DNA from: Auricularia sp. M13
Lineage: Eukaryota > Basidiomycota > Agaricomycetes > Auriculariales > Auriculariaceae
Assembly (NCBI GenBank): GCA_037042915.1
Contig: CM073194.1
Coordinates: 2,666,001 to 2,730,000, forward strand
Direction: 5' to 3'
DNA: 64,000 nt
Part shown: one piece after another, positions 12,993 through 40,196 of the stretch
Numbering within the stretch: position 1 is the first letter of the stretch
How the letters are laid out: each line of letters opens with the position of its first letter
Program-made: the position numbers and the translations under genes
The notes under the pieces: generated by a model
What the model was told of the DNA's origin: nothing
What the model saw: only the letters and a program-made list of their open reading frames with translations
Database searches by the model: none

Positions 12993-14080
12993 ATGCCCAC
13001 CTCGATTCCGCTCACTCGCCGCCCGCCCGCCCACAGCATTCAGTCACTGGTACGCGAGGCGCGCAGGTTGGGCCAACATTCGCGCCGCGCGATGGGGCAC
13101 GTGCCCATCGCAGAGCGCGTGCTGGACGGCGTATACTACGCGACCATTAACATCGGTGCGTCCTTCCCATCTGCAACTTCTCCCACTCTGATTATATTAT
13201 GATTCAGGCACACCCGCGCAGGCGCTGAACGTCATCCTCGACACGGGGTCCAGCGACCTCTGGCTGATGTCGCCCGCATGTCGCTCGGGCGGATGCGCCA
13301 ATGCGCCCCGCTTCGACGACACCGCGTCTGCAAGCTTTTCTACGGACGGAAAGAGCGTGCAAATTTCCTATGGCAATGGGGACGTTGCCGGTACCGTTGC
13401 GGCAGACCGCGTGGCTCTGGGCGCACTTGCCGTTGACAAGCAGATGTTTGGTGCGCACTCGTTCACATATATCGATGGTCGTAAATATATCATTAACACT
13501 GTTCGGGGCTTTGTGGACAGGCTTCATCACGAGCGTCGACACCGACCTCGTCGGGCGCGACATCACAGGCCTCATGGGCCTCGCGTTCCCTGCCATCTCG
13601 GTCACTCAGTACGCTCAAACTTCTGCTCATTGAAACTCAAGCATGCTCATGGAACCTTCTCCGTAGATCGCCGCCATTCTGGCTAAATTTACTGAACGCA
13701 AAGCAGCTCGACGAGCCGATGATGTCGTTTGCACTCGCAGGGTAAATACTTGAGAGCTGCTCGCCAATCCTTTGCCTAACCAATTGGTGTTCCTTAGGGT
13801 CGGAGAGACAGACCGAGGTGGCACGTTTACGCTGGGCGGCTTGAATGCGAGTCTGTATACTGGTGAGCGTTAAATGCATGCCACAGGTGGGTGTGCTAAA
13901 CTTCCACGAATAGGCGATGTGGACTTTGTCAACGTATCATCGCAGGCATTCTGGAGCTTACCCGTCAAGTGTGCGTTGCGTCCTTGCTAGCAGAACTGCT
14001 CAATGACGTGTCACTCGCAGCGCTCAGTATTAACGGCAAGTCAATCTCGATAATCGGAAACAAGTTTGGCAATGGTACCG
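12993..14080 (+). pseudogene. Aspartic protease (pepsin A1), 5' half, split by a 23-kb insertion
   Basis: Exons: 12993-13155, 13208-13450, 13521-13608, 13667-13741, 13798-13862, 13914-13970 and 14021-14080. They encode the N-terminal lobe of a pepsin-like protease: YYATINIG, the catalytic DTGSSDLW, ISYGNGDVAGTVAAD, then TLGG and the start of the C-terminal lobe. The last codon is cut after its first base, where the KDZ element begins. The 3' half resumes at 37312. Dropping one duplicated G and joining the halves gives 663 codons in frame across 11 exons. Such basidiomycete enzymes are secretory-pathway, membrane-anchored proteases. No signal peptide is visible at this start; one may lie in an upstream exon that I cannot find. 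Confidence 0.88.
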
Positions 14081-14160
14081 GGGACTTTCGCTTAAGCGAT
14101 TGCCGCACTTTGTGCAACGCATCGGTTAAGCGATTCCCGCACTTTGGCACGTTTTTGAAA
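14081..14160 (+). repeat. Left terminal inverted repeat of the KDZ element
   Basis: About 80 bases match, in inverse orientation, 37232-37311 with roughly 90% identity by eye. Shared blocks are CGCTTAAGCGAT, CCGCACTTTGTGCAA, GCATCGGTT, AGCGATTCCCGCACTTTGG and CACGTTTT. The left copy lacks one T of the GGGACTTTTCGC tip. Confidence 0.85.
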
Positions 14161-14199
14161 AGTAAGTAAATGTAATCCGAGTGTAGATAGAGACACGTT

Positions 14200-14465
14200 A
14201 CTACAGTATAAATCGCTGGGCATCGCTGAGGACAGCGTTTTGGGCCGCTTGTGATCGCTGGGTTTCGGTTGACATCGCTTCGCATCGCTGAGCTACGGAA
14301 TCAGCACGGATAGAACATGAGGATATTCGGTCGAAATCGGTGGGCATCGGTGGAAAGCGGCGTGTAGGGAAAGCCGGTGCGTTCACCATCGCTTGTGATC
14401 GCTGTACCACAAAATCGCTGAAAATCGGTGAAGATCGGTAGACATCGCTAGTAATCGCTAAATAT
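14200..14465 (+). repeat. Left subterminal repeats (ATCGCTG-type)
   Basis: More than a dozen ATCGCTG, ATCGGTG or ATCGCTA copies lie in about 260 bases, spaced irregularly by 8-25 bases and all in one orientation. The mirror cluster near the right end carries the reverse complement, CAGCGAT. Clusters of this kind are typical transposase binding sites of large DNA transposons; that role is inferred. Confidence 0.75.
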
Positions 14466-14550
14466 CCCTGCTAACTACACCGACCGTCCGCTCGCATATT
14501 ACATTAAAATATAAATAGCCTCCGATTTCAAGCCGAAACGCTATCTTTGT

Positions 14551-17500
14551 TTACGGAGTACACTGCATAGATAATATGAGCTTGTACGCATGCTGAGGGC
14601 TGAGCATACACTCACGGTCAGAGTCGAACTCATTCCACCCTTCGGCTACCTTGAACTGAGCACAGGCTGTAGCTCTCAGCCGCTTGACCTCCTCCAACAT
14701 AGCGCCATAAAATGACGCCTTCTGGAAGGCATAGGCTGCAGCCCCTTGTGCAATTTGCCGGCTACGCAGCTCATCGGCGGGCTGACGCTGCCACCGCGGA
14801 ACATCGGGGCCGTAGTTTGCTGCCGCTGCTGCGGCAGTATGCTCCATCTCCCAAGGGGCAGGCATCGGCAAACTCCGGTACACGGACCGGGTGGGGGGTG
14901 GGTCCTGGCAAACGCTTATAACTTTTTTTTATTTGCTTCCGAGGGGGGTCCGGGAGGCCCATTTGAGCATTGTCTGTGTCTCCCACAGCATATTTCTTTC
15001 TTTACTTGCTCCAAGAGCTTTAGCAAGGCTCTATGCAGCAATTTGGCCAGCTGAGGAGGAGGAGCACGCCGAGAGCGGCGATGTCCGAAGGCTTACGTCA
15101 GCGGTTTCCTTTTCCAGAATTTACCTCCACGCAGCTACACTTGCGCTGCGTCTATTGAGCTGCTGGACACTTTGAAAGTCGGCATTTGAGCATTTAACGG
15201 GAGTTGACCAAGTTTCAGTTCCAAATACGGCATCCACGGGCTCAAATTTGCTTCCGAGGGGGGGGGGGGGGTTCGGCAAACCGCTTATAACTTTTTTTTG
15301 GGTGCGTGTCCACTATTTTCCCCTTGCCTGCCCCTTGCCATCTCCTCCGCTTTCTCGCCCTGCTGGTTACCGATGGCCTGCCAAATAGAACGCATTCGAG
15401 AAAAGTGCCGTTCGCTGCGCCCAAATTCTGCGCCCACAATCGACATCTGTTCAGACCAGCGCCGATAATGGCCTTGCAAACGAAAATACCGGACGCGGTT
15501 GTCTATGCAGTATGTTAATTTTGCAAAGACAACTCTGTCCGTTGCACGCACCGTCATCTGTCAGAAGAGCAAGTTTGGTTTTCTCCTGCTTGGAAACAAG
15601 CCCAACGTCCAGTTCCCTCGCCAAAACCAAGCAACATCTCCCTTGGACTTGCCAACATTCAGTGGCTGAGGTTTGTCGACGGGTGCGTGAGCGCGCAGCA
15701 TAGTAGCGTCCAGATCCTGATAGGTTGTGTCCTCCCGGCTCAGACCCAAGGCCCTGAGCGCGCTTAGATGCTCCGAATAGATATTGACAAAGACATTTTG
15801 CTTGGACTTCATTTTTTTTAGGTATGCTCTCGCTCTCGTCTTACCACCCGTGCTGTCCACCTGATCTCGAGCTTCATCAGCATTGGAGCCGAAAAGTCGA
15901 ATGCTGAATCGCAGGTTCGAGAGCGTGCCCTCAGCATGTGCCTTTCGAAGCTCTCGCTCCATGTGGACCAAGCGATCTGGCACGCCATTCTCCTTCCGCT
16001 CCTCCTCGCTGAACCAGGAGGGTAGCATCAACGGCACATCCTCAGCGTAACCGGTCTCCTCGAGACTCTCCTCGTCTTCGGAATCACCGGAGTCGATTTC
16101 ACCCTCCGTAATAGCCTCGGCAAGGTAAGGCATATGCCTGAGCTGCAGTCGGCGAAAGCTGGCTATGCGCTCGCTCAAGTTACGACGCTTTTGTCTCACG
16201 CTCTGCTGAGCTTCCTTGTCCTGCTTATTCTTTCGTGCGTTGGCGGCTTTCCCACGTAGTCGCACTCTGCGCACGTTGAGCTGTAAACAGTAAATTGTGA
16301 AAGGCACGTACTGATCTTCTGCTAACTGCACGCCTTTAGCCATCATGCCCACAACACCGCTCTTACGGATCTGTCCAGGAAGACGCTCCTCCCGTTCAGC
16401 CTTGCTATGACGTCCTTGTGATTAGGGCCTATCAGTGGGTAAGTGATTGGCTCTTCACAGATTAGCGTTTGAACTTCACGGTTGGCAGGGTCAACACAGT
16501 ATCGCCCGCGAATAGTATCGTCCTTGACCACCGCTGTCTCCGTCGGATACTCTGCTTCCCAGGCAGCTATGCGCGCAGGATCAATGGAGCTCGAAAACTC
16601 CTCGAATTCTGCCTTGGACACGGCAATGTGTTTGTGTGCTTCTGCGGCCTGGGAGTAAAGATATTTTGCTTACAAATTTTCTAAGTCCTTGCCAACAGCA
16701 AATCGAGCCGCACTCACCAAGTCCAACCAGTTTGTTGAAATTCCAGAAATTATGAACGTCGTTGAGGATGTCATGACGATGACCGGCGTTCGCGTCCCGA
16801 CATATGGCCGCCGCGAGCTTTGTTTCTGCCCACGGCCGCTCAACCCCTTCTCCGCATGCTCTCCCAGCACCCGGTGTGTACAGAAGATGATACACATATT
16901 GACACTTCTCACAATGACCCTGTATATGCATTTTGGGTATAACCCACACGAGCTCTTTCGCGATCTGCTGGACGTCCTGTCGGTCGGGAATTCGTCTCGC
17001 AAACGCCGCATGATGTTGATGCACAAAGAGCAGGCTCTGTCACTCGACAGCGCGGGGTAAGTCGGTGTCAGGCTTCGGTCCTTGGGCGTATACCCAGCCG
17101 TGGTCAATCATATAATACCTGAAGACATTAGCATTTTTCAGCCTCGAATCTCTGTGCTCAGACGTACTTTTCGCCCAGCTTCAAGTCTACCATTCCCATC
17201 GCCGGGAAGCAGCTGTGACGTATGCAGCACACAGCAGACAAACCCGAAACCTCTCGATTGCTGAGGTCCTGGATTTTATGCATCTTGTCGTATCCAGGAC
17301 ACGATCCAGCCTCCTGAGAGTTTATTAGTACTGCTTAGGCATTTGATGAACAAATGGTCATGCCTGCGAAATATCGCTATTTTTGGACGTGTATGCTTCC
17401 CAATCTGAGCGTCGAGGAAGGAAAGCGCATCCATCGAGCAAGGAAGTGTCCCCAGCGTCCCGAAGTTTGACCTTCAAATAAACCTTGAACGATGCGTCTG

Positions 17501-18834
17501 TACCGTGCCACAGGATGAATTTGAACCTTGTGTCGCATGAATACATGAATCCTGGAGGCCTGATCTCTCACCTGTGCTTCTCGTCGTTGGCCAAGTCATG
17601 CCAGCCCGGCTGCAGATTGAACTCTGGCTCTGGACACGCAGGGCAAGCGACGATGACCGAGCCAGGCCAACGATTGGCGGGGAGATGCCCGTCAATTCCG
17701 AGAGCCTGACCGCTTGAAGCTGCATTTTAAGTACGCGCCAAAAGTGTCCGGCTCGAAGAAATGCATGGTAGCCTTTCTCTCGGGGTATGAGCCAAAAAAT
17801 AATATCCTGAAGATGTAAACTCACTCTCTCCTTGCCGCGTTTATTTTTCTGACACACGGCCTGCCAGTAGTCCCAAGTTGATTTTTTGCTCTGAGCGACT
17901 CCAAGTGCCAATGCATCATAAGCTCGAATGTATAGCCGACGGTCGGTCGACTGAACGTGCTGGGGAAGATGCGTGCCCGGATGAGCTGATGCACCAGACT
18001 GGGCAGCTCCTGTCGAGGGCCCCGACACCGGCAGAGGACGAAGTTCAAGGTGTGATGACCATTCAGGTGTACCACGGTCATGGAGTGAGTGTAACGATGC
18101 TCAGGCAAGATTTCAGGGCAGGCTTGAACTTCCATCAACGTTGTCGGGCACGCAGCGCCGTTGTGTCCAAGATGTACCTTGAATTCTGGGTGATCGCCTA
18201 GCGCGGCGGGCTCGAACGACGACCCGTTCCATTTCTCGATGGCGTGCAGCGGCAGACTCCCATGGCGCTCAAGGAAGCAGGTATGACAGTGGACGGAGGA
18301 TCCAAAACAGTCAAGGCATCGATAAAGACGACGTCCATGCTCTTCGCAGTCGCAGACTTTGCCAACATCCTCGTTCCACTCCAAGCTCATCATACCGTCC
18401 AGCAACTGTGCTCGCGCCCTTTCGAATTCTTTGTTGAATTCCGATGTAGTCTATACACTCAGTGTCAGTAAAAGTATCACGCAAGTCGAAAGCACAGCGT
18501 ACCTTGCCATGGGTTGTACCCACGCCCTGGCCCGCCCTGTGGTTTGCCGGTGAGGCGCCGAGCTAGGAGCTGGCTGCAAGGCTGTATCATCGCCCGCTGG
18601 TAACGGACCCTCCCTGGCACTGTACTCTATACTATGTACATACACTTCGGCAGCCTTGCGTTTCTTGGGACTCGTGACACTCGAAAGATGGCAAAGCGAT
18701 CTTAAAGTACGGGTAGGGGAGTGAACGGAAGTTACATCGACAGACGTAGAAGAGCTAGCAGTAGTTTGGACTGTATAGACAGTTTGGGTGAGCTCTGGCG
18801 CTCGGATACGGGGACGCTTGCTGCGAGGCGGCAT
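14551..18834 (-). CDS. KDZ transposase with CxC2-like cysteine cluster
   Basis: A multi-exon gene read leftwards from an ATG at 18834. Landmarks in order: a Ser/Thr-rich N-terminus; a Cys/His cluster (CDCEEHGRRLYRCLDC, CHTCFLERHGSLPLH, then VVHLNGHHTLNFVLCRC) as in CxC2-type domains attached to KDZ transposases; FLRAGHFWRVLKM; ACPACPEPEFNLQPGW; a catalytic-core region ending DTSLLDGCAF; GEGVERPWAE followed by GHRHDILNDVHNFWNFNKL; and a basic helical C-terminus near 15300-16350. The combination is diagnostic for Kyakuja-Dileera-Zisupton transposases, which cut and paste large elements in the nucleus. Exon joins are only partly resolved. A frame change near 17725 and a disturbed stretch at 14884-15300 mean this copy may be inactive. 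It sits next to the left terminus, as expected for the element's own transposase. Confidence 0.85.
14903..15300. repeat. Short direct duplication with poly-G tract
   Basis: TTTGCTTCCGAGGGG occurs at about 14934 and again at 15246, and GCTTATAACTTTTTTT at about 14913 and 15284. The second copy has expanded to a run of about 14 G. The pair lies in the C-terminal part of the transposase gene and disturbs it. Confidence 0.5.
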
Positions 18835-19090
18835 CCTGTAAAAACACAGCGAGAGCCGAAGTCCTGGTCACGATGTAATACACCACCGAATGGCGGCGCA
18901 TATAATCTACACCCACGAATGCGGATGCAGCAAGCGTGCTGGCGGCAACAGAGCCTAGCAGGCCGCAGGTACGGCGAGTACGAAAGGGAAGTCCGGACTT
19001 TGAATTCTCTCGGAAACACACGGCCCATCGGCCGAGATTGTAAAAACCAGAACATTGTTTTATGTTTTCCAGCCTAGCTATCCTTGTAAT

Positions 19091-21381
19091 CTACCCCTGT
19101 AGTGCATACTCTCTTGGGCCTTTGAGGTCCATTACCTGCGGTTGCAGGTGCTGTATTTTGACGGTGCGAGCGATGTTCCTCGCCGGTGCCGGTTCACGTG
19201 GCCGAGCCGGTACCTTCTGCGCACGTGAGCGCATCGTACGATCAGAAGTTTGGGCATCTGCAGCTCTCATCCGTTTCAACGGTGCATCGCTGCCATCCTT
19301 GACCTTGCGCCTGGTGAAGACTTTAAAATCACTGGGTGTACTGCCAGAAAATACATACTTTTTTCCGTTTCCCACAGCGGTTGATTCGGCGGGTATGGGA
19401 GTGAGAGGCGATTCCGGGTCTACGGTGCGGAAAGGGCTGCCGCCGGGTGTGCTGGGGAACGCAGTTGGCGTCGGAAGCTGCAGCCGATCAACGATTATGT
19501 TAAACTTAGAACAACCCGACTTACCACTTGCGATCCGAACCTCGAGCGCACAGGCGTCTGGTGCTGCTCCACCGTCTGCTGCTCCCGGGGCTCCAGCATC
19601 TGCCTGTTCGACGATATGGGCGTCTGTTGCTCCGGCGGTTGCGGCGTCAGCTGCTCCGCGGGCTTGGGCGTCTGCTGCTCCGGCGGCTGCGGTGTCTGCT
19701 GAAGCAGCGGCACCATCTGCACATCCCGCGGTTTGGGCGTTAACTCCGGCGGCTCGGGCGTCTGCTGGGGCGGCGGCTCGGGCGTCTGCTGCTCCGGGCG
19801 GCGGCTGAGGCATCTGCTGCTCCGGCGGCTCAGGCGTCTGCTCCGGCGGTGGCTCAGGCGTCTGCTGAAGCAGCGGCACCGTCTGCACATCTGGCGGTCT
19901 GGGCGTTTGCTCCGGCAGCACCGGAGTCTGCGGGAGCAGCAGCGCCTGCTGGTCCGGCGGTTTGGGTGTCTGCTCAATTGAGCTTGAGCCTGTATATTCT
20001 CGGCGTGAGATGAGATGCCAAAGCAACCCGTACTGAACTTACCGCGAGTAGCGCGCACTGCTACTTTGGACAGTCGCTTGACTTCGGCTGCGTGAATACC
20101 TACAAAGATGTCAGCGACCACTTCCACCTGCAAGAAAGACCATACCTGGTAAAACCCGCATGCAGTAATCTCTTAGAGCTTCATCGTGCCGGTTATGCTC
20201 TGTGCTCTTGAGCCACTCGCCAACCTTGCCTTTCCCGCCTATACCCTGTAGTCTGTTCCCATGTAAGACATAATAGAAAGTATTAAGAGTACAAACGTAC
20301 GACTTGATTACGACGTTGCCGGTTGTAGGATCGAGTTGCGCGAGCTGGAAAACGGCCATGTTCGTGGAGCGATAAGAGAGCTTTCCCATAAGATCTGCGA
20401 TTTTTTGATAAGCTCTTGCTCGATCCTAATAATCGAATTAGACAGGGAAATGCATTGACTCGATGCTTACACTTCCTCCTGCGCCTCCAAGTTGGCGGGC
20501 GAACTTCGCTCGGAGGACAGTTCCTGTGCGGCCCCGCATAGCGCATCTTCTCCTCCGTGTCCAACAGCGCCCATCGGTCAGAAAGAACTCGATTTCGCAC
20601 CGGAATCCGCTCCTGGTTCCAATCCGCAGCGTCAAACTCTGCGGCGAGCCTCTCGGCAATTTCACGGTCCAAGTCGGCCTTGATCATCCGCGCATATAGC
20701 TCTCTTGCGCTATCCGCCCGACCTTTATCAGCCGTCGTTGGCGGCCGAGACTGACCCGCCTGAAGGGCACCCTCGGGTGTTGCTGCAGTGCTGGCCCCGT
20801 TAGCACGGACGACGAGGGTAAAGAATTTAGAAAATACTCACCGCGTGTTCTTGTTCGACGCATTGAGCGACTGTTCGTAAATCTTGATCCACACCGCAGT
20901 CTGCGAGTGAGTTGTTACGAACGTCCTGCCGAAATGCCTTACGCAGCTGTCAGCTAGGAGCATAAAAGCAAGCAAACAGTTTTACCGTGCGCGCGTCTTG
21001 CGACTTGCAGTCCGCGTCATAAAGCTCAGGAAATTTGTCCACAACGTGCAGCCCGTGCGCCTCCCAGATGGGAATGATGTGCTGGGAAGTGTATATGCGT
21101 ACTTCTGCTTTTGATGCACCTGAGCGCTTCAACTGGTATAACTTGTACAACTCAGGCTTGAGCTCTTTCATGCATGCTGGGGTGACGACGAGATTGGGAT
21201 CACCGACCGTCCAGATAGGCCGCTGTACGTGACGCTTGCCCCTGCGCTTTGGCTGAGTCGACGAGGGCGGATCATCGGGTCCACCACCACCTGGTGGCGA
21301 CATCTGAGCACTCCACAGAACACCACGCCGGGCGCATGCATTTATGATATCCTGTGAAACAATCGTCCCCGCATAATCCAT
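19091..21381 (-). CDS. Unknown KDZ-cargo protein with QTPEPP repeats
   Basis: About eight exons read leftwards. Recognisable coding blocks: KRRGKRHVQRPIWTVGD and HIIPIWEAHGLHVVDKFPEL in the first exon; WIKIYEQSLNASNK; a helical block ARMIKADLDREIAERLAAEF; DRWALLDTEEKMRYA; FQLAQLDPTTGNVV; a stretch with VEVVADIFVGIHAAEVKRL; then 30-40 repeats of QTPEPP/QTPQPP type; and a basic tail with PPLKR-like and VKIQHLQP segments. No known domain is recognised. The LLDTEEKMRY segment recalls, weakly, helix 2 of HMG-type boxes. The repeat tract and charge suggest a nuclear, disordered protein. Single-base frame breaks occur near 20551 (G run), 20140 and 19800 (C run). The 5' end is uncertain; an intron donor near 21441 points to an earlier exon. 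Confidence 0.55.
19600..19985. repeat. GC-rich short repeats coding QTPEPP
   Basis: Units of 15-30 bases built around GGCGTCTGCTGCTCCGGCGG recur. Their reverse complement reads Q-Q-T-P-E-P-P in the frame of the surrounding gene. One extra C near 19800 moves the repeats to another frame, so either frame keeps a long open stretch. Confidence 0.6.
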
Positions 21382-21689
21382 TGACCGAGTCAACCGGCAT
21401 TTAGCATTCAGCCGCACGGTCCATCGAGATGATAACGTACATACCTCACCGATTCCCACGGGCTTCGCAGTTGATTTGGCAGAGAAGCACGCAAATCCTG
21501 TTCCTATGATTGTGTAGTAAGCTACGTCGGCATTTGATTTCGCTTAGGACTCAGGCCCACTGTGCCGCTTAACATATTGATGTTTCAGGTTGCCTCAGAA
21601 GAACTGCAATTGATGGATGCTACGGGGAGAATATCTCTCTATCTTTTACGTTCGAACGACCAGCTTCATCTGCACATCTGTGACCTCCG

Positions 21690-22935: not shown

Positions 22936-23041
22936 GTTGCACGTTCGCGGGCCAGCGGGGTGGGGAATGACTGTGTGGGTGCCAGAACGCAGACGCCATA
23001 TAAGTCAATGGGGGCTTGCGCGAGGTCACGCTGGGGCTGGG

Positions 23042-23813: not shown

Positions 23814-23878
23814 GGGTCAGCGGTATGCAACCTGTTGCAGACGCCCGCGCCGCCGGCTTACTTTTGTAGGCGCAGACG

Positions 23879-24364: not shown

Positions 24365-24476
24365 ATACTATGACAGCATGTGATTGCTAGTAAAGTACCT
24401 TAGTGCGCCCCTATACTTGAAGGTATATAAACCCGCGCACGGCGGGCTACGCTAGCATTAGCCCTTGTCCTCCTGC

Positions 24477-28197: not shown

Positions 28198-30293
28198 ATG
28201 GAGTCCAAAGCCTCTCATCGTCGCGGCGCCACAACAGCACGCGCAGCGTCTGCTAAGCCTATTGCTCTCACGGTGATTTGTCTCTGCTATAGCTGTTCAG
28301 CAAGCTGACTAGCTCGTGCAGGTCGCACACGACGTGCGGCATTACACACTGGCAGCCAGGTATGCTCTTGTCGACTTCACGAACCGCAGTTGATGGACAG
28401 TTTTCCAGGCAGGCGAAGGGCACGGTGTGGCTGCAAATCGCAAGGTACGCGCATCAATATACTGGCGTCGCCGCGGCGAAGTCGTACTGACAATATTTTA
28501 TAGAATAAGGCCAAGACGCCACCCGCGGGACGTGATCATGATCTCGTCTGACTCTGAGGATGAAGTTCCCACACAGGCGCATTCGACGTCGGCCACCTCG
28601 CGTCGCATCCGCAAGCCGAGCACCGTCATCGAGATCTCCGATACCGAGGACGAAAAGACAAACGATGGGACGAGTCCTCGCGACTTCGGGTTCGACTTGG
28701 TCAACGGCATCCTGGTTGAAAAAGACGACGTTAGTGCACAGGTCTCCAGCGCATGACGATTGTACTCACAGCACTACAGGACGACGTCGTGGCGGTCTCG
28801 GTGAGCGAGGGTTCCGCGGTTCACATGCACGCTCGTCTCGAGAAAATGGCTGGCGACGACGACGCTGCTGTAGCCGCTGAGGCTAATGGGGAGAGCGAGG
28901 AGGTTAGGCAACGCAAAGTGGCACGGCCTTGACACTTACGTTCTGTTCGCAGGAGTTTGATCCCCAGCTTCTCGCTGGAAAAAATGGTGAGTACAGCGTT
29001 ATAGTTGGTATGTTTTACTTACGGCTTGCGGCGCAGGAGGTTGACACGCAGCAACACGCGCCTGGAGCTAGCGGCACTGCGGCAGGAGTTAGAGAAAGTG
29101 AAAGCCGATCTGGCGGCCGAGGTACGTACACAAAGACATATCGAGACCAGGCGCAATGCTAACTACTTGCAGCGCGAGGTCAAGGAGAACAGCCTAACGT
29201 GCTTCTGCGCGCGGCGGGTGCACAGATATTACAGGTGAGTTTTATGTTCGTACTGCGCGCAAAGTGAACTTACCAGAGATGTAGCTTGCGATGCGGACAC
29301 GGCCCTTTCCATCTGAGCTGTCTGCAGGAAGCTCATTCGCAGCACGGTCGCTTCCTCTACAGGGCGCCTCAGTGCCCGACCTGCCGCGGTACAATACGAC
29401 AGCTGCCCGTCGAGAATTGGAACTTGCGAGAGGCGTGCGAGCACGGTAACACGGACCCCAATCCGGATGACGGCTTTGACTCAACCTGGCTGGATCGCGT
29501 CGTATGGGGTGGTGCAGCGCCGCGTAGAGTTTTCAACAATGCCCCAGAGCTCGACGAGCTGCCACTCCCACTCGGATTCGTACTGGCCGCAGCAGCACCG
29601 GACGATCCAGCTGACCCTGACTATCAGCCCAGCGACGAAGACAACGGGTCGAACGACGGCGATGTTGACATGCTTGAGGACGACGACGACGACAACAACC
29701 GCTCAGAGGACGGTTGGATGGAAGCACTGCCAGTGACGCTCGACTATTTCAACCATTTTCCGCGGGACCTCCACCTCGATCCGCCCATCCCCGCGGCGAC
29801 GGTTGACCTATTGACTGGCTGCGCCGATGAGCTCACGTTGTGGAGGTACGAATATCGGGACATACTCGACGATCTATCAGGCGACCAGGCCGGTGTGATT
29901 GCCCGGCTGGTCGATGCCATCCGCAACGCTCGACTCGAGCGTCTGGCAGAACATCTGCCCCGATTGGCCTACGGCATTGCGCTCGATTATGGTATCGTGC
30001 CCGCCGAGCAGGACGCCGCCATTCCTGAGCTTGACCGTGCCACGCTTGACCTATTGACGGGCGATCAGCGTGAGCTCGAGCTGACGGTGATGCGCAACGC
30101 GTTTGCGCTGGACGGCGACGAACCGTTGATGGAGGACAAGGTGGACCAGATTTTGCCCTTCGTCCACCACCGCATTCAGAAACTCCAGCCGTACCTGCCG
30201 CTGTTGAATTTGGACGGCATGCGCGAACTCCCGCCGATATCCGCCGAGCGCGCACGGCGCGCTCCATATGATCACTGCGTAGTGCGCTATTAG
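28198..30293 (+). CDS. SIM-coiled-coil-RING protein, STUbL-like, 563 aa
   Basis: Nine exons: 28198-28272, 28322-28359, 28409-28444, 28504-28729, 28780-28902, 28953-28990, 29037-29121, 29173-29234 and 29285-30293. They total 1692 nt in frame. Residues 60-70 read VIMISSDSEDE and 91-100 VIEISDTEDE, two textbook SUMO-interacting motifs with the acidic flank. A probable coiled coil spans about 178-207. The finger follows: C217, C219, C231, H233, H237, C240 and then CPTC near 260. It matches RING spacing except that the first pair is C-x-C instead of C-x2-C. An acidic run and a long helical tail finish the protein. SIM plus RING proteins ubiquitinate SUMOylated nuclear proteins (SUMO-targeted ubiquitin ligases). 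That role is inferred here. The gene is cargo of the KDZ element and appears intact. Confidence 0.8.
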
Positions 30294-31540
30294 CTATCGG
30301 AATATTTTCAGTATAATTTCATTACCTTGTTGCCTGCCACCGAGCTCAAGCGCACACGAGAGGTCCGCCCGTAAGACTAAGTCCTTGTGCGAGCGGGATG
30401 TGGCCGGCCATTCATGAGTTACCGAGTTCGCCGGCCAGTTGCCGGGCGCTTCGGACTTGGGCGCTTCGGACTTGCGGGCGCTTCGGACTTGGGCATTCCG
30501 GACTCGGGCGGGCGCTTCGGACTTGAGCTTTGTCAGAACCTCGGGCGCGGGCGCTTTGGAGTTGGGCTGGCGCGAGAACTTTGGTGTTGGGCAGTCGGGA
30601 CTTGACCAACCTGTGCTCGACTGGATTGTGCTCAGCGGGTTTGCCGGACAATTTAGTTGCCGGCACCAGCACGGACCTTCGGCCGAGCGAGAAGAGCTCT
30701 AGAGTAATAATGCGGATATGATACAAACAAACACGACACAAAAACACGGGCGAGAGGATATGAGAGGTGTGGGTTAAACTACAAAGAACGAGTACATCGA
30801 CGAGTCGGGGACCTGCAGCTGCGGGCGTGAGGATCTGCCGTATGACATAAGATGCATACCTTAATGAGAACTTCAAGCGGCCTAGGCTACATGAGCGTGA
30901 GCACAGGTATGGGCAGGGAGATAGTACAGGTGACCTTAGAATGTGAGACGATGGCCGGCGCCGACCTGCTGTGCATGAGGGCAATGCCGGACACCGAACG
31001 GTCACATGGATGCATACCTACTCTTCGGAGACGATGGCAGCAGGCCTGAGATGTCACTGCGTGAGAGCGGGCCGAAAAGCTACAAAATATGTACGGTTAA
31101 CATACCTGGTACAGGCCTTGGCGCTGGTGAGATGAGACGTCGAAGGACTTGAGCGCGCGCCATGGTCAAATATACTGAACGTTACATACCTCGTGAATAG
31201 CCTCGACAATGACCCCTGAGACTCTGCGAGGCCTGGACAGCGGCTGTAAATTAATGGCATGGTCAGACGCGACTACGACGGCAAGATCACCAATGTGGCA
31301 CCTACCTGGTCTCGACTCGCGAACCGTGCTACATCGCGGCCCCATAACGAAGCTGCACCATGGCCCATGGGCGCTGAGGACGGCTGCCAAATGGCAGCCG
31401 CCCTCGACAAGGCGATCGTGGCCGATGGCCTGCGTGGCCAGCTGATAGGGGCTGGCGCCCCGTGCGGAAGGATCGACCGCTCCCGAATGGGAGCAGCCCC
31501 AACGACGGCGCGGCCAGCGCCAGCGGCGCAGAGTGTGTCG
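30294..31540. other. No resolved gene; satellite and possible small minus-strand exons
   Basis: After the RING gene come a short tandem repeat (listed separately) and DNA with at least four ACATACCT/GCATACCT sites (30856, 31012, 31103 and 31187 region). Read on the minus strand these are AGGTATGT/AGGTATGC intron donors. They hint at a minus-strand gene with tiny exons, but I could not join them into a frame. Confidence 0.35.
30439..30520. repeat. Short tandem repeat GGGCGCTTCGGACTT
   Basis: Four to five copies of a 14-17-base unit lie head to tail, with one diverged copy (GGGCATTCCGGACTC). They lie inside the KDZ element, outside any supported exon. Confidence 0.8.
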
Positions 31541-31723
31541 ATGGCGCCGGACTCGAATGAGCCCGGCGCCGGTGGGTGGTGGGGTGGCGGCGGGACTTGG
31601 CGGGACGAGAGCAAGATTGGCCAAGTCCGATTCGGACTCCGGCCGAAACTCATCCTCCTCGCGCCAAGTCCCGCCCCAGCACCCAGCACCCAGCGCCCGA
31701 CACCCACCGCCCGCCGCGCCGCG

Positions 31724-32071
31724 CCGCGAAGACCAGCTCCAGGATCCGTTGGCGCGTGCATTCGTGCGCGTCGACATCGTCTGCGCACCTCCATTCGGGG
31801 GTGTGCAATCACTCCACCACCAGCGCAGGCGTGCGCGTCGTGCTCGACCCCAGGCTGCAAGGCCGTGTCCACGTCCCGCCCACTCGCTGCTACTCTCATT
31901 CGAGAGTGGTGGCACATTTCTTCGCCAGATCCTACGGTAGGTCTGCTAGCTGGTGCTGGTGCTGGTGCCGCTTCTCATCGACGACCACAGCGGCAAGAGC
32001 GTGCAAACCTCGCAGGGTCAGCGACTCCCCGGCTCTGAAATTATTGTGCTCTTCACTTGGAGCATTAAAGG
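31724..32071 (+). CDS. Possible exons of an unresolved cargo gene
   Basis: Three stretches look coding and are bounded by plausible splice sites: DQLQDPLARAFVRVDIVCAP; after a ~27-base gap VRVVLDPRLQGRVHVPPTR and YSHSRVVAHFFARSYG; then LVLVPLLIDDHSGKSVQTSQ and SEIIVLFTWSIK before a GTGTGT donor. No start, stop or family is seen. They could be upstream exons of the orphan gene at 33540 or a relic. Confidence 0.3.
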
Positions 32072-32214
32072 TGTGTTGTCTTATTTTCGTTTGCCGGGGT
32101 TGGCTCGAGTTCTCGCTCGCGCGAGTGTGTGTGGTGTGAGACTGTTTCCACGGCGGGCTGGGCGAGGCCAAGACCAACGCTGCGCGCGTCAGAAGGCAGC
32201 CCTAGTTGAGCATG

Positions 32215-33110
32215 TGGCAATGACGGCGGGCGGGACGCCTGGCGACCATCAGCACGCGGGCAAGGGTGGTGCGGCCGCGGGGGGGACGTGCGGCAGATGC
32301 TTACGGGCGCACGCGTCGAGCTTGGCATAGCCACGCACTCTCCGCGCGCGAACGAGCGGCTGACGGCCGCGGGCGCGGGAGCGCAAGCTCTTCCCCAGTG
32401 AGCCCAAGACAGTCACTGCGCGCGCGATGAGCGCCGATGGTCTTGTCACGCGAGGCGGATCTGAGACCGCGCGCGCGCGCGACGAGCTGCAGATCGTCAC
32501 CGCGCGCACAGCAAGCATGGACCGCCGCATACGTGCGGCAGATGTATACGGGCGGGCACGTCGAGCCCGGGATGGTCACGGCGGGCAGGGAGAGGCGAAG
32601 ACTCTCCGTGCGCGAACGAGCGGCTGACGGCCGCCGCGGGCGGGGCAAGCACAAGCTGGCCTTCCCCAGCGAGCCCATGACAGTCACCGCGCGCGCTATG
32701 AGCGCCGAAGGTCATGCCGCGCGAGGCGGATCCGAGACTGTGCGCGCGACGAACGGCAGACAGTCACTGCGCGCACAAGAAGCTTGGACCGCCGCAAACG
32801 TGCGGCAGGTGTTTACGGGAGGGTGCATCGAGCCCGGGATGGTCGCGGCCAACGGAGAGCTGAAGACGGTCTCCGCGCACGAACGAATGGCTGACGGCCG
32901 CCGCGGGCGTGGGGACGTGCCGCAGACCATGGCCGCGCACACGTAGAGCAGCAGGCCGGCAGCGGGCGCACGGCGAGCATGCTGCGGCCGCCACGGCCGT
33001 GTAGCAGATGTTTACGGCGCGGTCCGTTGAGCCCGTGGCTGTCACAGTGGGCCGGGAGAGCTGGAGACCGCAGCGCGCACGCAGCGAGTGGCAGACGGGC
33101 ACCCCTGGCG
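32215..33110. repeat. Tandem repeat, ~265-bp unit, about 3.5 copies
   Basis: The marker GAACGAGCGGCTGACGGCCG (or its variant GAACGAATGG) recurs at 32350, 32614 and 32881, giving spacings of 264 and 267. Each unit also contains GTGCGGCAG-GT/AT-TTACGGG, GAGCCCGGGATGGTC and GCGAGGCGGATC. A fourth, badly diverged unit follows to about 33110. One plus-strand frame stays open over two units with repeats of AWTAA-VRQ, but no gene model is supported. Confidence 0.75.
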
Positions 33111-33539
33111 CGGCGAGTCTGAGACACTGCGGCCACGCAGGGACCCAAAGCATCATACCGGGGGAGAGCAGGAGATCGTGACCGGGCATGCGTAACAGTT
33201 GGGCGAAGTATCACGTCGCGTGGGGCGAGTGCCTCCCGCTCGCCGCGCGCGACATGCATGCCCCTTCTCACCATGGGCAGCAGGTGGGCCCAAGGCATGC
33301 ATGGCAGACCCGTGGAGGATGATCATCTGCGAAAGCAAATATCTAACCATATGCAGCTCCCAGCTGCCTGATTGCCCTGACATCTCAAGCTCAAGCATTG
33401 CACACACGATGGCCGCAGTGTGTACTGTCCTAGCTGTCTGCTGCTGGGCCCGTCTGACGCATAGTGCAGAACCCATTCGAACCCGACATTTACGACTTGC
33501 TGGCGATCGCCCGGGGTCAATCGCGCGCGCGACGTCGAC

Positions 33540-36500
33540 ATGGGTGACCATGGCGGCGATACAAGCATCCAGCATCACGAGGGCAATATCGCGACCGCTG
33601 CCGCCGCTGCTGCCACCGCCAGCACCCAAGCCGAAGAAATCGAGATTGGACTCGACGATATCCATGTGGGTGGAGATGCCGACGACGTGAACATGCAGGT
33701 GGGTTGCATCCATAAGTGCAGCCGATGGGCGCGCTGCTCACATTCTCTCAGGATGACGGGCACGGTGGATCGCACTCTGCAGACGCGCCTGTGCCTGCTG
33801 CCGAGGAGCAGGTATGCATACCGCTCAACTGTTAGGATGAGACTGATTTGTCGGGAATAGGATGCTCCCGGATACCATTCGCGCCGCGGCGACTCGAAGG
33901 AGGCCGTGGCCACGCTTTCTGCGCCATGGCGCCCGCGGCTCGAGAACGATCCATGGCCCTGCAAGCCGCAAGCTGTCGCGTTCGACTCTGAGGCCAAGCG
34001 GTATATCTACTCGTTCTCCCGGGCGAGCCCATCCCGGACCTGCCCATCAACGAGTACCCGCGCCTGCGCACAGACTTCCGGCTGGGCGTACACGATCCGA
34101 TGCAGTACCCTCAGTACTGGCAGCCTGCGGCACCGCACATGGCGTGGATTCCTCTGGTCAAGCCGCACCGTGACCTGTACGGAGAAAACATCACGGGCTA
34201 TGTCATGCAGCCCGAAGACTGGCTGCCGGTGCAGGACAGCGCTAGTTACGGGCGCCTGGGGCGGCCATTGCTGGCGCGTTTGCAAGACTCGTTCTACGAG
34301 ATATACGTGCTCGTGCTGCCTCTTCTGCGGACGGCAAGGACGCGCATCTTGCTCCCCACCACCACCATCAACGACTGCATCCGCTTGCTGTCAGACTTCC
34401 AAAGTCTGACAGCAACGTTCCGCGAGACCGCTGTGTCCGTCACCCGCATACAACGCGGCATCGCCGAACTCCGGGCTTTCAGATTGTTCAGGCTCGATGT
34501 AAAATATCATGTTGGCGATGAACGCTTTGTATCGGATCGCATGTACGACTGTGTTGGCGTCTTCAGCACGGACAGCGCGATGGTGACGCTCCTTCACCGT
34601 CTCGGGATACCCGTTTGGTTCGTCTCAAAATCCATGCCGCCCAATATGAGGAAAGACCAGCTGTCACGCGTGTTTGAGCACTTCCGCCGAGTTGAGATGA
34701 CGCCGCGGGACGCTCTAGACACTGAGGGACGGGATTGGAGTGGGGTAGTGTATCGGCCACCCACCCCGCCGTATTACCCCGACGACGACGAGCATGTGGG
34801 TACACCACGACCCCAGGACGATGAGCCAGTCGATGAAGCGCCTGCGCGCGGACGTGAGCCCGCAACACGCTCAGTCTCCCGTGATCGATCCCGGTCTCCG
34901 AGGCCTGGACGGGCACGTCCTCGAGCACGATCGCGCCACGCACAACAAGAACGGAACCAGCGTCAAGGGTGCCTCAATATTTGCTGAGGGAAGAGCCTCG
35001 TTACCCTGGTACGTTTGTGGGTTGTTTTTGGTGCCCTTGCTCACGTGTTTGCTTTAGCTGGTAGCAAGTCGCGTCGGCCCGCAGACGCACCCCCGGCTTG
35101 GATCGCACGGACCTGGGAAACCGACCCAGGGCACCAGGCCAATGACCACCCTGCTCTTCCAGAGTGGGTGCCGCGACCGCCAAAATGGCTTGCGCACGTT
35201 GCTGCTTCAGTGGACCGCTCTCGAATGCGCGAATATCGGCTATGCGCACCCGACGTTCTGCACCCAGTTCCGCAGGCGCGATTCGGAGAGCCTTTACAGT
35301 ATACCATGCCACCCTTCCACCACTTTGTTGCGCAGAAGGAGAGCCGCATGGTCTTTGTCTTCAGGTCCTGGGTTGCGTTGCGCAACTTCTGGCTGCGGCG
35401 CATCATGCGCGACGGCTTCATTGGTTTATCGGCTAAAATATGGCGGAAGGTTCTTGACGACAAGTACCATACAACCCCGGAGCATGAGTCGTGGGTCAAG
35501 GAGAACTGCACGGGCCTGGGCATCAAGGCCAGCGACGTGAACAAAGCCGCCTCGCTCACCAGCAGGACACATATTCTGCTGCACAACGCCACCACCACGT
35601 CGACTCTTGCCGCGAATGCGGATATGAGCTTGGTTCTGCCGCCTGTCGCCGCCGCTGAAGCTCGCCCCAGCATGGCTTATACACGTCTGCCCTCTGAGGG
35701 CGAGGATCTTATCGTCAAGAGCGCGCGAGCGTTTGCCGAGCCGTACCAATGGAAGCAGAAGGTCAAATCTGCTTCAGTATTCTTCGAGCGCACCACTGGG
35801 CACATGTATGCAGCGGATACTGCGGACCGCGAGCTCCTGCTGACCGGGGAATGGGATGAGTTCTGGGATTACGAAAGCTGCCGCTTGCTGCTGTTCCGCA
35901 AATCGTCCCGCGTACCAGAGGAGGAGGCTGTGGGCGAGGACAACGAGATTCTGCTCGACGAGAATAACTTGGCCTGGCACCAGTCAGTGGCAGATGCTGA
36001 TGGCCTGGCCTCCGGCTCTCAGGTGATGTGGATGGCCGCCGTGCCCCTTCGTCAGGTGCGTCTTATCTTTCTGTGGCTGAATGTTGCTAATCAATGCATG
36101 TAGGAAACAGCTGTGTTCGCTGGGCGCTCAGCTGCGGTTACGCCGAACCCCCCAACGCAGGGTGCAGATGCTGGGGAAGGCAATAAGCCGCCGCCCGATC
36201 CAGTTTACGGCTACGAGGCCGAGCAGCCGAATAGACGCGCAACGAAGACCCTCTTCATCGGTCAACATCCTCTGGCCGAAGAGGATCTCGCTCGGGCCGA
36301 CGTGCGCGCCTTCTTGGTGTGGGAGGTGCAGGAAACCTCGTTTCGATTTCAGCTGCGGGACCTCGACACCTACATTCTCAAGTCGCTCAAGATCTGGAAC
36401 GACGCCGTGCGGCAGGACCGCGAAGCTCTCTGGCTCAATTGCTGGGGCGGGCAAGACGGATTTGTACCTCTAGGATTACGGCAGCCGCCTCACACTGACC

Positions 36501-36739
36501 CAAACCCCGAGAACCGCAAGGTCTCAATATATAGCCTGTGGAAGATTGTGCGCGCGTGGCCGAGGTGCCGCGAGGTTACCAACCTCCGGCGCTACACTGC
36601 AACAGAGGGTTTGTCAATGGAGAAGTTGCTCGATATTGAGCGCGAGGTCTGGAGCTTCTACGCGCAGAGCTTCCAGGATTACTTTGGGATTCTGCCCACT
36701 ATGCCCACCGTGATGCCCGCCAATCCGTTTGTCTCGTGA
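33540..36739 (+). CDS. Large orphan cargo protein, two apparent frameshifts
   Basis: Exons start with 33540-33698 (acidic, Ala-rich). The conserved body follows, with LGVHDPMQYPQYWQ, WIPLVKPHRDLY and, most tellingly, DCVGVFSTDSAMVTLLHRL followed by GIPVWFVS. Then comes an Arg/Ser/Pro-rich linker, an exon 35057-36055 with WLAHVAASVDRSRMREY, FHHFVAQKESRMVFVF and WDEFWDYESCRLLLFRK, and a last exon 36104-36739. The GVF ... GIPVWFV core resembles a family of Agaricomycete proteins of unknown function that I have seen repeatedly annotated as hypothetical; I cannot verify this here. Single-base frame breaks are needed near 34018 and 34950. There is no catalytic motif. It is the right-most cargo gene of the KDZ element. 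Confidence 0.6.
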
Positions 36740-36889
36740 TGTAATGTAGATACTTTGTCAAATCCCCTCTCGTAGACTCTGCTTTGGTGAAACGACTGTA
36801 TATGACGCACTGCTGCAACAACGCTAACATGTTCCATGATTTTTCAGCCATTCATAATTGCTTGACGCTGGGGTAAGCGGCGGTAGGTC
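36740..36889. other. Short 3' flank of the orphan gene
   Basis: Non-coding DNA between the stop codon of the large orphan gene and the right subterminal repeats; no motif seen. Confidence 0.4.
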
Positions 36890-37185
36890 CGTGGTCGCGC
36901 ATAGCTATGCTCAGCGATGCGCAGCGATTCTCAGCGGTGCGGGGGGCTGATTGACGGTATCAGTATTTGCACATTGTCCAGCGATGCACTGCGCTTCTCA
37001 GCGATGCTCCATGTTAATTCAGCGATTCCAAGCTGTGTGGGTGCTGCCCGACTATGTTCATATTTAAGCGGCCCCCAGCGATGCTCAGCGATTGTCAGCG
37101 AGGCTCACTGCCATGCGAGCGCTGACCGTCCGTGCTCATATTTCAGCGAGCTCAAGCGATTACCAGCGATTCCAAGCGATTTAAA
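36890..37185 (-). repeat. Right subterminal repeats (CAGCGAT-type)
   Basis: CAGCGATGC, CAGCGATTC and close variants occur about 15 times in 300 bases. They are the reverse complement of the ATCGCTG repeats at the left end, as expected for symmetric transposase-binding regions. Confidence 0.75.
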
Positions 37186-37231
37186 TATTATTATTAGATA
37201 GCTAGTACCATTACACTACAGACGTTTGAAC

Positions 37232-37311
37232 ACTGAAAACGTGCCAAAGTGCGGGAATCGCTGAACCGATGCATTGCACAAAGTGCGGGTATCGCTTAAG
37301 CGAAAAGTCCC
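37232..37311 (-). repeat. Right terminal inverted repeat of the KDZ element
   Basis: Inverse counterpart of 14081-14160, ending GCGAAAAGTCCC. The following base, G at 37312, continues the protease codon. Confidence 0.85.
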
Positions 37312-38722
37312 GACACAGCTGAGTTTGGCGTGGTCTCTACTGCGACCTCGCTCATTGCGTACGTCTCAGTGCCGTGGCATGTGCTGCAAATTTATCCGCA
37401 TATAAAACTGCTAGCGGGCCTACCAGCATTGTAGAACAGGTGTATGCAGCGATTGGCGGTGTGCGTGGGACTGGCGCACTCAGCGGGCTGTGGACTTACG
37501 GTATGCTTGCACTGCTCATAGTTCAATGGTGTTCTGCATCTCACGTCACCGCATAGACTGCTCAACTGAGGTTAAGGTACGACGTATGTCAGTCAGCATG
37601 ACGCGGCCTGCTTTCTGATCACGCAGGCACCGTCAGCTCGAGTTCGGCTTCAGCTCTAAGACATGGCCACTTGCTCCAAAGGCCTTTACTGCGAACACAG
37701 TGGACGACAAAACCTGCGTCGGCACTCTCTTCGACATCCCCGACAACAACAGCGACGACGGGAGCGACGCAACACCGTCGTTCATCATCAGCGAACCCTT
37801 TCTTCGCGGCGTGTATGCCGTATTCCGCTTCTCGGATCCAGCTGCTGTGGGCTTTGCAACGCGGGTAGCCAGGCCGGGTCCCGATTCGACGAAGACCCCT
37901 TCGAGTCTGGGTGGTTCGGAAACAGGTCCGAGTCAGCCTTCAGGAGGCTCTGGCACTGATCGCATTGGTTCTGGGTCGAACGGTGCGACTATAGGCGGTG
38001 CGATAGGTGGAGCACTCGGTGGGCTTTTGATTCTCGTGCTCCTCATATTTGTCTTCATGCGCCGTCGCCGCACGCGGCTCGAGTCGACCCATGCCAGCAA
38101 CGCGCGCAAATTGGCGGAGGTTATCTATCCCAACGTCGAGACACATCTTGGCTCGGCGGGGGACGCACTCCCCATGATCCAGCATCCCGGAACGCCAAGG
38201 GGGGATGAAACCCCGAGATTTCTGGCACTGGCTGACCTTTCGCCACACGACCAACGGAAGGGTGCGTCGCTTCCTAGCTCGGCGCTCCTGGACGTAGCGC
38301 GGGGTGCACACCCAACCGCATCGACGGCGGCGCTCGGCCCGTACGTAGTCGAGCCATTCATGCGCGATGCATCAGAATCGTCTGCACGAGAAGGATACGC
38401 GGCGCGGGCGCTTGGTTCCCCCACTGAACGCCGCGGTCTGCGTGCCCATTTTCAGCGACCAGAGATGCCGGGCGCAATGGAGGTGCCCGATTTCGACCCT
38501 TACCTGCCGCACGAGCGCGCGCGCGACGGTGATGCGCCTTACATGCTCTACCGGCTTGAAAACCCGCCGCTACACACGAACGCTCGCCTGGTTCGAGATC
38601 CCGACTTCAACGCGACGGCGGCTGGGGTCTCTGACGCGGCCGCATCGGCGCGATCGGAGGAGCATGCAGCGCAGGCTCGTGCAGAGTCCCATCTGCAAGG
38701 AAGCAGGACGGTTGTGGGGTAA
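37312..38722 (+). pseudogene. Aspartic protease, 3' half with transmembrane anchor, early stop from a MITE
   Basis: Exons: 37312-37358, 37415-37500, 37557-37576 and 37637-38722. The first one continues the split codon of the 5' half. The second pepsin signature reads VVSTATSLIAGP where active members have a DTG- or DSG-type triad, so the second catalytic Asp is missing. The end of the lobe (LEFGFSSKTWPLAPKAF) follows, then a Ser/Gly-rich stalk, a helix AIGGALGGLLILVLLIFVF, the basic stop-transfer MRRRRTR, and a ~220-residue cytosolic tail. The TAA at 38720-38722 is the first codon of a MITE. Before that insertion the frame continued into 40143-40196. It is a membrane-anchored protease homologue, probably not functional here. 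Confidence 0.87.
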
Positions 38723-40134
38723 AGCTCCAACTAAATACATTAATTACCCATTTAATCTGATTATATTACATTACCTATTACAATTATTCTACGTGGCCCT
38801 GTAATTTCCCTGTAACGGGTTGTAATGCATTATATCACCTATAAGCCTTATAATGCGAGATACAGTCACGGAAATAAATATTTGTACACCCTGATTTTAA
38901 TGACTCTTGTATGGACAACTGCACAGCCCGATGCATGAGCAATCTTTTACTAATAAGGGGTGTAGATGACAAGTACCTAAGCTTTAATTTGGTGGTTCAA
39001 TGATGATGATTGGATTGCTGGTTCTTGTGCTACAGTCGTAAATGTGAAATACCTATACGTGCACTGATCACCCCGCAACTTCTGATCAAATATAGGAGGT
39101 ACCAAACAAAGTTTTTATATAACATATGAGAGGGTGTAGTACTAGATTATGACAGGAGAAACTACGGGAAGGGCTGCGTTGCAGAGCTAGGATCAGGTAA
39201 ACATGACTCTCGAAGTGGCCGAAACTTGACCAACTTGCCAAGGGCCGCCCAATAGACTCCCATCCTTGTGAGTTATTCAATGCAATTCACTCAGCAATAG
39301 CTGTTTGCTGTTATGAGGTAAAGGTATGAGGGATGGCAAGCAGCAATTGGCAAGTTGGTCAAGTTTTGGCCACTTCGAGAGTCATGTTTACCTGATCCTA
39401 GCTCTGCAACGCAGCCCTTCCCGTAGTTTCTCCTGTCATAATCTAGTACTACACCCTCTCATATGTTATATAAAAACTTTGTTTGGTACCTCCTATATTT
39501 GATTAGAAGTTGCGGGGTGATCAGTGCACGTATAGGTATTTCACATTTACGACTGTAGAATGAGAACCAGCAATCCAATCATCATCATTGAACCACCAAA
39601 TTAAAGCTTAGGTACTTGTCATCTACACCCCTTATTAGTAAAAGATTGACCATGCATCGGGCTGTGCAGTTGTCCATACAAGAGTCATTGAAATCAGGGT
39701 GTACAAATATTTATTTCCGTGACTGTATCAGGCTGGTGAGTGATGAGAGGGAAGATTTCTCAGTGATGGTAGGTGTGGGACTCTCATATTTTCTGATTGG
39801 ACACCTGAGACCATGGTGAGAGCATCTACCAAGGCTCCTTTGCTTCAGTGATTATTGATTGATCTGCACCAACTGCCTCCGGAGTGTGTTCAGCCTCTGC
39901 AAAACCAATTTTCGGCCAATATGCCACCCCATGCATCTCATGTAGTGTTGATGATTACACTGGTGAACATCTAGTAAGTTTGCAAGCAGTTGATACTGAC
40001 CCCTCTCCCTGTACTCTAGGTACATGTGCCACATGCGAGATATAATGAATTATAATGTATTACAACCTATTACATTACTTATTCCCATTATATTATCTTT
40101 GGGCGTAATGGTAATGTAATTGGTTGGAGCTTTA
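38720..40134. mobile_element. hAT-like MITE with 8-bp target duplication
   Basis: TAAAGCTCCAAC at the left end is perfectly inverted at the right end (GTTGGAGCTTTA). Both flanks are TTGTGGGG (38712-38719 and 40135-40142), an 8-bp duplication as made by hAT transposases. AT-rich subterminal sequence with repeated ATTACATTAC/GTAATGTAAT follows inside. No transposase is encoded. Most of its length is a second MITE inserted within it. Confidence 0.85.
38863..39725. mobile_element. Tc1/mariner-like foldback MITE nested in the hAT-like MITE
   Basis: Two arms of about 379 bases (38863-39241 and 39347-39725) are near-identical inverted copies separated by about 105 bases. Ends read CAGTCACGGAAATAAATAT and its complement, with TA on both sides. 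TA duplication and CAGT-type ends point to Tc1/mariner mobilisation. There is no coding capacity. A few mismatches between the arms indicate moderate age. Confidence 0.88.
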
Positions 40135-40142
40135 TTGTGGGG

Positions 40143-40196
40143 GCTGCGAGCACATCCAGTCACGACGCTCCTCCACAATACGATTCTCTTATGTGA
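40143..40196 (+). other. Orphaned C-terminal codons of the aspartic protease
   Basis: In the frame that led into the MITE, the DNA after the right target duplication codes 17 residues containing PPQY and then stops at TGA (40194-40196). These were the last codons of the protease before the MITE supplied an earlier stop. P-P-x-Y is a WW-domain docking motif. Confidence 0.7.

Follow-up and report, generated by a model that had tools for sequence, protein, structure and literature searches.

Located at positions 12993-40196 of the stretch of DNA analyzed here is a gene for a homologue of the A1 aspartic proteases that harbors four mobile elements. The stretch, hereafter referred to as the window, is 64,000 nucleotides in length and corresponds to C2:2666001-2730000 of the Auricularia sp. 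M13 assembly (52.1 Mb in 14 contigs). The largest of the four is a KDZ-superfamily transposon of 23,252 bp that lies within exon 7 of the protease gene. Insertion of this element, with its Kyakuja-like target duplication and tips, together with nested miniature inverted-repeat transposable elements (MITEs), explains the locus with a probability that we place at roughly 93%. All comparisons were with other copies of the elements and with paralogues within the same assembly. An earlier sequence-only reading had described one A1 protease gene, split into seven pieces before and four pieces after a 23-kb block, and holding a nest of three transposons. The split and the nesting were borne out, but the count was one too low because a 486-bp MITE within the KDZ element had been missed.

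Borders and copies of the KDZ element

Both ends of the KDZ element were used as queries against the whole genome, and 12 left and 11 right ends of the family were found. Every left end starts with CAATGGTACCGGGGACTTT, and every right end closes with GTCCCGACACAGCTG. Beyond these tips the flanking sequences vary between copies, with a 7-bp repeat adjoining the element on each side. The duplication is perfect in 10 of the 11 two-ended copies and retains six of seven positions in the remaining one (C2:126k), and thus is not due to chance. The twelfth copy, at C10:3642k, is without a right end and runs off its contig, which ends 5.7 kb beyond. In the window the element extends from 14070 to 37321, with tips CAATGGTACC and GACACAGCTG that are constant in 12/12 left and 11/11 right ends, and the duplicated AGTTTGG occupies 14063-14069 and 37322-37328. 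The borders are accordingly 14069/14070 and 37321/37322, both in exon 7. The sequence-only reading had placed them at 14080 and 37312, approximately 10 bp off on each side, and had assigned GGTACC and GACACAGCTG to the exon. These letters belong to the element tips, and the host gene, which had been regarded as a ruler fixing all borders, did not by itself fix those of the KDZ element.

By their coordinates, nine copies span 22.7-24.2 kb. The copy at C4:79-107k spans 28.1 kb and has extra inserts, approximately 4.2 kb in the transposase region and approximately 0.7 kb near the right tip. That at C7:621-626k is only 4.6 kb long, and the 3.2 kb of it that were compared resemble the window element near the tips only. 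The left ends of six of the 12 copies, that of the window among them, are identical over 420 bp. Four of the 12 (C1:75k, C2:126k, C4:79-107k, and C10:3642k) are located less than 150 kb from the end of a contig, and the element possibly has a preference for, or survives near, chromosome ends.

Joining the flanks of other copies yields long frames that stay open through the site, of 445 codons at C7:440k and 528 codons at C2:126k. Within its first 260 residues, the C2:126k frame matches an F-box at 3e-5, above the cut-off, and the C7:440k frame gives an F-box-like match at 0.0043, below it, over the corresponding residues. Candidate frames also cross the sites at C1:8578k (261 codons) and C1:75k (222 codons). 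Besides the frames hit by other KDZ copies, an open frame at 11308-12783, just 5' of the protease gene in the window, displays F-box-like similarity, which is weak (E 0.0054) and falls below the cut-off.

The interrupted protease gene

The protease gene is encoded on the plus strand by ten exons (12993-14069 and 37329-40196). The exon model is our own, derived from the sequence and not from transcripts, and is based on Pfam and PDB matches and splice ends. Exons 1-6 and the first part of exon 7 are located at 12993-13155, 13208-13450, 13521-13608, 13667-13741, 13798-13862, 13914-13968, and 14028-14069. The remainder of exon 7 and exons 8-10, as far as a second insertion, follow the KDZ element at 37329-37358, 37415-37500, 37557-37576, and 37637-38719. 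The gene is thus present as seven pieces before the element and four after it, the last of which is cut again. Its final 17 codons and stop lie at 40143-40196, in frame with 38719 once the inserted MITE and one copy of its duplication are removed. Pfam Asp matches 13192-13683 at 3.6e-24, the N-terminal part of the protein matches PDB entry 6r61 at 1.3e-39, and a C-terminal piece matches PDB entry 6r5h at 1.3e-10. Without both inserts and with single duplication copies, the frame is open for 667 codons and ends in DAPPQYDSLM.

The best paralogues of the left half are C11:2127956-2128362 and C11:339940-340346, and the same pair matches the right half at C11:2128997-2129530 and C11:338775-339305. 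Two partly matching loci on C12 and C9 score slightly above the C11 pair with the right half (65.0 and 64.8 versus 61.3 and 60.9 bits) and also match the left half. The sequence-only reading had named halves belonging to different genes as the outcome that would count against it; in fact both halves lead to the C11 pair. These paralogues occur as near-equal pairs, namely C11:2128k/C11:339k, in opposite orientation on one contig, and C12:157k/C9:785k. We read the pairs as recent large duplications or as haplotype pieces in the assembly. A second allele of the interrupted gene was looked for in the assembly, and the best matches outside the window were 63% (left half) and 52% (right half).

One C11 paralogue, read over 701 bases across the insertion site, is uninterrupted. 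The predicted KDZ-free join, with one AGTTTGG, is AAACAAGTTTGGCGTGGTC, and its junction reads AAACAAGTTTGG followed by CGTGGTC. The resulting protein aligns with the C11 paralogue without gaps (NKFG-VVSTATSLIA versus NQFG-AIDTGTTLIG). An empty site starting from GGTACC, as had been proposed, adds nine residues that have no counterpart in the paralogue. This alignment also bears on whether CAATGGTACC and GACACAGCTG might represent a shared target site, such that the element homes into conserved sequence and the earlier borders are right. Identical letters do flank every copy, which speaks for homing. The flanks beyond those letters vary, however, the 7-bp duplications directly adjoin them, and the protease would acquire the nine unmatched residues. 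Site-specific homing was therefore rejected as scarcely credible; the constant tips belong to the transposon and not to its host.

Active A1 proteases contain two catalytic D(T/S)G motifs. In the split gene the first, DTG, is present, and the second, in the exon 7 part at 37329-37358, is STA, as compared to DTG in the C11 paralogue. Given that several base changes are needed to convert DTG to STA, the aspartate may have been lost earlier than the insertion, which is young, and what the KDZ element entered may already have been a pseudoprotease gene. Reading on by hand from exon 7 into the element yields approximately 32 foreign codons and then a stop at 14167-14169, such that the full-length protease would have been lost through the insertion.

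Terminal and subterminal repeats

The sequence-only reading had noted inverted ends, subterminal repeats, and a KDZ transposase in the block, and all three were confirmed. The left inverted repeat (14079-14155, plus strand) is 77 nt long, starts 9 bp inside the tip, and is 91% complementary to the right repeat (37236-37312, minus strand). Overlapping these are subterminal arrays at 14070-14499 (plus strand) and 36882-37321 (minus strand). Each array, 430 and 440 bp in length, respectively, contains ten copies of ATCGCT in one sense, which at the right end are read inward from the tip, and two in the other. The density in the element interior is 0.06-0.10 per 430 bp, and the maxima in 2,000 letter shuffles were 3 and 2 as compared to the 10 observed. 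In the outer 430 bp of the left ends, ATCGCT occurs 10 times in 9/12 copies, 11 times in one, five times at C1:75k, and once at C7:626k. The corresponding counts for the right ends are 10-11 in 8/11 copies, 14 at C1:75k, nine at C7:626k, and zero at C4:79k, where an insert is present. The inverted-repeat palindrome CGCTTAAGCG becomes CGGTTAACCG at both ends of the C1:75k copy. The subterminal and inverted repeats likely constitute the binding sites of the transposase.

Transposase, companion gene, and further frames

The transposase gene region (15564-18450, minus strand) encodes a KDZ domain in 16584-17039 and a CxC2 cysteine cluster in 17824-18450, its frame being broken by small gaps. The match to PF18758 has an E-value of 4.1e-23 (82.7 bits against a cut-off of 26.6) and covers profile positions 140-217 of 217, and that to CxC2 has an E-value of 2.6e-14 (53.8 bits against a cut-off of 27). 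A transposase domain with an associated CxC cluster is characteristic of the KDZ superfamily. A TET/JBP passenger gene was ruled out, as none of the 19 Tet_JBP matches in the genome falls inside the spans of the 12 copies.

On the plus strand near the other end of the element lies a companion gene, referred to here as g (33992-36739), which consists of three reading-frame pieces and is interrupted in the window copy. Scans of the pieces against Pfam, NCBIfam, and PDB sequences revealed no known domain. A genome search with the middle piece gave, at E < 1e-30, matches in 10 family copies and at nine further loci. Three loci with weaker matches (E of approximately 2e-4 to 3e-4), at which no similarly arranged KDZ match lies within 31 kb, were dropped. 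At seven of the nine other loci a KDZ match is located within 31 kb with the outward-facing arrangement kept (C1:4679k/4710k, C2:2309k/2291k, C6:175k/166k, C11:3032k/3023k, C2:4641k/4648k, C9:413k/405k, and C5:2231k/2245k). A strict nearest-match rule gives six of nine; a different KDZ match lies closer to C1:4710k, for which the KDZ match at C1:4679k was counted by hand. Neither of the two C8 loci has a KDZ match within this distance and arrangement. Random placement gives such proximity in 2.8% of draws, an approximate figure that is based on 105 of 149 KDZ rows (95 merged loci), with the lengths of C8 and C9 guessed and some contigs omitted. The distance between gene g and the KDZ match at the other loci is 7.7-8.3 kb in four cases, 13.5 kb in one, and 17.9 and 30.8 kb in two, and within the element family it is 18.2-23.7 kb.

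A further gene (29268-30293, plus strand) is weakly RING-like, its zf-RING_2 match (E 0.0019) falling short of the Pfam cut-off, and is conserved in the large KDZ forms. Clear relatives of it occur at C1:4705k and C2:2297k, which are the two other widely spaced elements, as well as in the 10 family copies, and elsewhere there are two 30% matches (E 5.8e-4). The gene is nearly confined to large KDZ forms.

Ratios of nonsynonymous to synonymous substitution (dN/dS) were determined for frames cross-matching between the copies at C4:106k and C1:75k, a choice that favors conserved frames. The values are 0.04 for the transposase core and 0.11 for its C-part; the N-part gave no estimate due to saturated synonymous sites. 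The gene near 23.5-24.4 kb of the window yields 0.11 and 0.12, two further minus-strand frames 0.24 and 0.07, the RING-like gene 0.20, and the three pieces of gene g 0.10, 0.36, and 0.16. Three frames near 31.2-32.2 kb yield 0.68-0.91, and that stretch is thus probably not coding. We suggest, tentatively and with rather more doubt than confidence, that the large KDZ elements of this fungus share a stable multi-gene design, in which the CxC2-KDZ transposase faces outward at one end and the companion protein is encoded at the other. The two would be approximately 8 kb apart in a compact form or 18-31 kb apart in an expanded form, in which purifying selection has preserved the RING-like gene and other frames. 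Such elements could represent a basidiomycete class of large transposon in which transposition requires, or is assisted by, a second protein.

The modules of the element are unequal in their synonymous divergence, which is approximately 1.0 in the transposase and 0.32 in the RING-like gene. In addition, window positions 30570-31470 are nearer to the C1:75k copy, whereas most of the element is nearer to C2:126k. The copies are therefore mosaics, reflecting exchange between element lineages.

Nested MITEs

The KDZ element itself contains the 486-bp MITE at 14852-15337, bounded by the duplication CCATCTCC at 14844-14851 and 15338-15345. None of the three KDZ copies with which the window element was compared contains it, and most or all of its length is present at 11 further places in the genome. 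The second insertion into the protease gene, a hAT-like MITE at 38720-40134, is flanked by the 8-bp duplication TTGTGGGG at 38712-38719 and 40135-40142. It cuts the last protease exon, introducing a stop directly after RTVVG. It carries short terminal inverted repeats (TAAAGCTCCAAC at both ends) and is noncoding as judged from its size only. Inside it lies a Tc1-like foldback MITE (38863-39725), with TA on both sides and 390-nt arms that are 97% alike. The hAT-like MITE is found without the inner insert at eight places, one of them partial, where its positions 1-143 meet 1007 onward, and six other near-full-length copies of the Tc1-like MITE are present in the genome. That the 3' end of the gene is cut by one MITE containing another, as the sequence-only reading had claimed, was thus confirmed, and each of the two occurs alone elsewhere. 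The hAT-like and Tc1-like labels are provisional assignments from the duplications (8 bp and TA, respectively) and inverted repeats.

Proposed course of events

The locus most probably arose as follows. A KDZ transposon entered exon 7 of the protease gene, duplicating AGTTTGG, and the 486-bp MITE entered the transposon afterwards. Separately, the hAT-like MITE inserted into the last exon and then received the Tc1-like MITE at a TA. The order of events is established within each nest only. In the transposition itself, the CxC2-KDZ transposase may bind the ATCGCT copies of the subterminal arrays together with the 77-bp inverted repeats recessed from the tips, cut at the CA/TG tips, and join the element at 7-bp staggered cuts in a cut-and-paste reaction. 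The borders, duplications, copies, and open frame of the empty site can be read directly from the sequence, whereas statements on the repeats that are bound or on the copy that supplied the enzyme are inferences.

Several observations weigh against this interpretation. Two acceptor sites of the protease model were shifted after the first exon models, since dropped, yielded stops. The empty site is known only as a computed join and in the paralogues; the corrected string has no matches in the assembly, and hence an empty allele was not found there. The subterminal repeats are absent from the right end at C4:79k and rare in the left end at C7:626k. Finally, with its transposase frame broken, the window copy probably cannot move itself as assembled.

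The last point raises the issue of whether the copy in the protease gene was disabled before it moved and was mobilized in trans by another copy. One gap in its transposase exon is common to the copies at C1:8578k and C6:811k, and another to that at C1:8578k, all at different target sites. Likewise, the 4.6-kb copy at C7:621-626k has matching tips and a perfect duplication and shows no KDZ match, its middle 1.4 kb lying outside the scan. The shared gaps, however, occupy a G run and a CG repeat, both of them prone to recurrent error, and gene conversion would likewise spread them. Moreover, over 22,216 bases aligned between the window and C4:106k copies, nested inserts and one tandem-repeat stretch excluded, there are 56 gap events (40 of a single base) as compared to 77 substitutions. 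Gaps are thus unusually frequent, and a share of those in the window copy may be assembly error. We regard mobilization in trans as possible, with slightly less than an even prospect of being correct.

Assembly error might also be invoked for the junctions themselves, given that 12 near-identical family members in a repeat-rich genome make misjoins possible. A misjoin, however, would not yield a perfect 7-bp duplication with the exact exon frame beyond it, and we consider this explanation very unlikely. Transposition of the KDZ element into exon 7 remains our preferred reading.

Neighboring features

Two similar transporter-like open frames at 2679-3227 and 6833-7867 of the window form a tandem pair, the second of which matches Pfam MFS_1 at 2.5e-21. 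An Rfam scan of 12900-40300 gave no matches. A tRNA-Arg call by ARAGORN at 19757-19839 was set aside as probably false because it lies in a tandem-repeat stretch.

Relationship to known elements

Of the three KDZ groups, Zisupton alone is well characterized as a DNA transposon, according to PMC12730594. The same paper also describes Kyakuja-1_LB and -2_LB of Laccaria bicolor, with 7-bp duplications, 5'-CA..TG-3' tips, a TET/JBP gene, and no terminal inverted repeats. The window element resembles these in its 7-bp duplication, CA..TG tips, and KDZ-group transposase, and differs in its 77-bp recessed inverted repeats, which the L. bicolor families lack in the same text. Absence of such repeats does not clearly define Kyakuja, and we have consequently filed the element as KDZ, Kyakuja-like. 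With Zisupton and a Dileera family, for which 8-bp duplications are given there rather than the 7 bp observed here, it has the transposase superfamily in common. KDZ1, KDZ2, and KDZ3 of Cryptococcus neoformans (approximately 11, 9.2, and 10 kb, with terminal inverted repeats of 139-241 bp; PMC12810828) are similar in combining KDZ with a zinc-binding CxC-type domain and inverted repeats and in inserting into genes with duplications. They carry CxC1 and 4-8-bp duplications (same source), as opposed to the window element, which is 23 kb long, has CxC2 and a 7-bp duplication, and contains a companion gene as well as other conserved frames. KDZ groups or domains are also reported in mushrooms and Ganoderma in PMC8290104, PMC7473861, and PMC8955403.

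The window family differs from TET-containing Kyakuja elements in having no TET/JBP match in any copy. Starships encode a tyrosine recombinase and reach up to about 700 kb. The likeness to these Pezizomycotina elements (PMC12134995) lies in being a large, multi-gene fungal mobile element; the window element differs in its KDZ transposase and has no recognized host-benefit cargo. No description of 20-kb KDZ elements or of a conserved companion gene was found in a literature search of titles and abstract openings, with Repbase, supplements, and most subscription papers outside its range.

Transposons nested within a gene are ordinary, as is gene disruption. The KDZ element lands in exons, namely that of the protease and, at two other sites, open frames with F-box-like matches. 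The large element, in contrast, with a partner gene that recurs at its far end, seems to belong to a known transposon group as a variant that has been little described. Interest in KDZ elements has centered mostly on their TET/JBP passengers. In the family described here, 12 copies have exact tips, duplications can be read in 11, the subterminal arrays are dense, and a companion gene recurs, so that one may ask directly which proteins and end repeats KDZ transposition needs.

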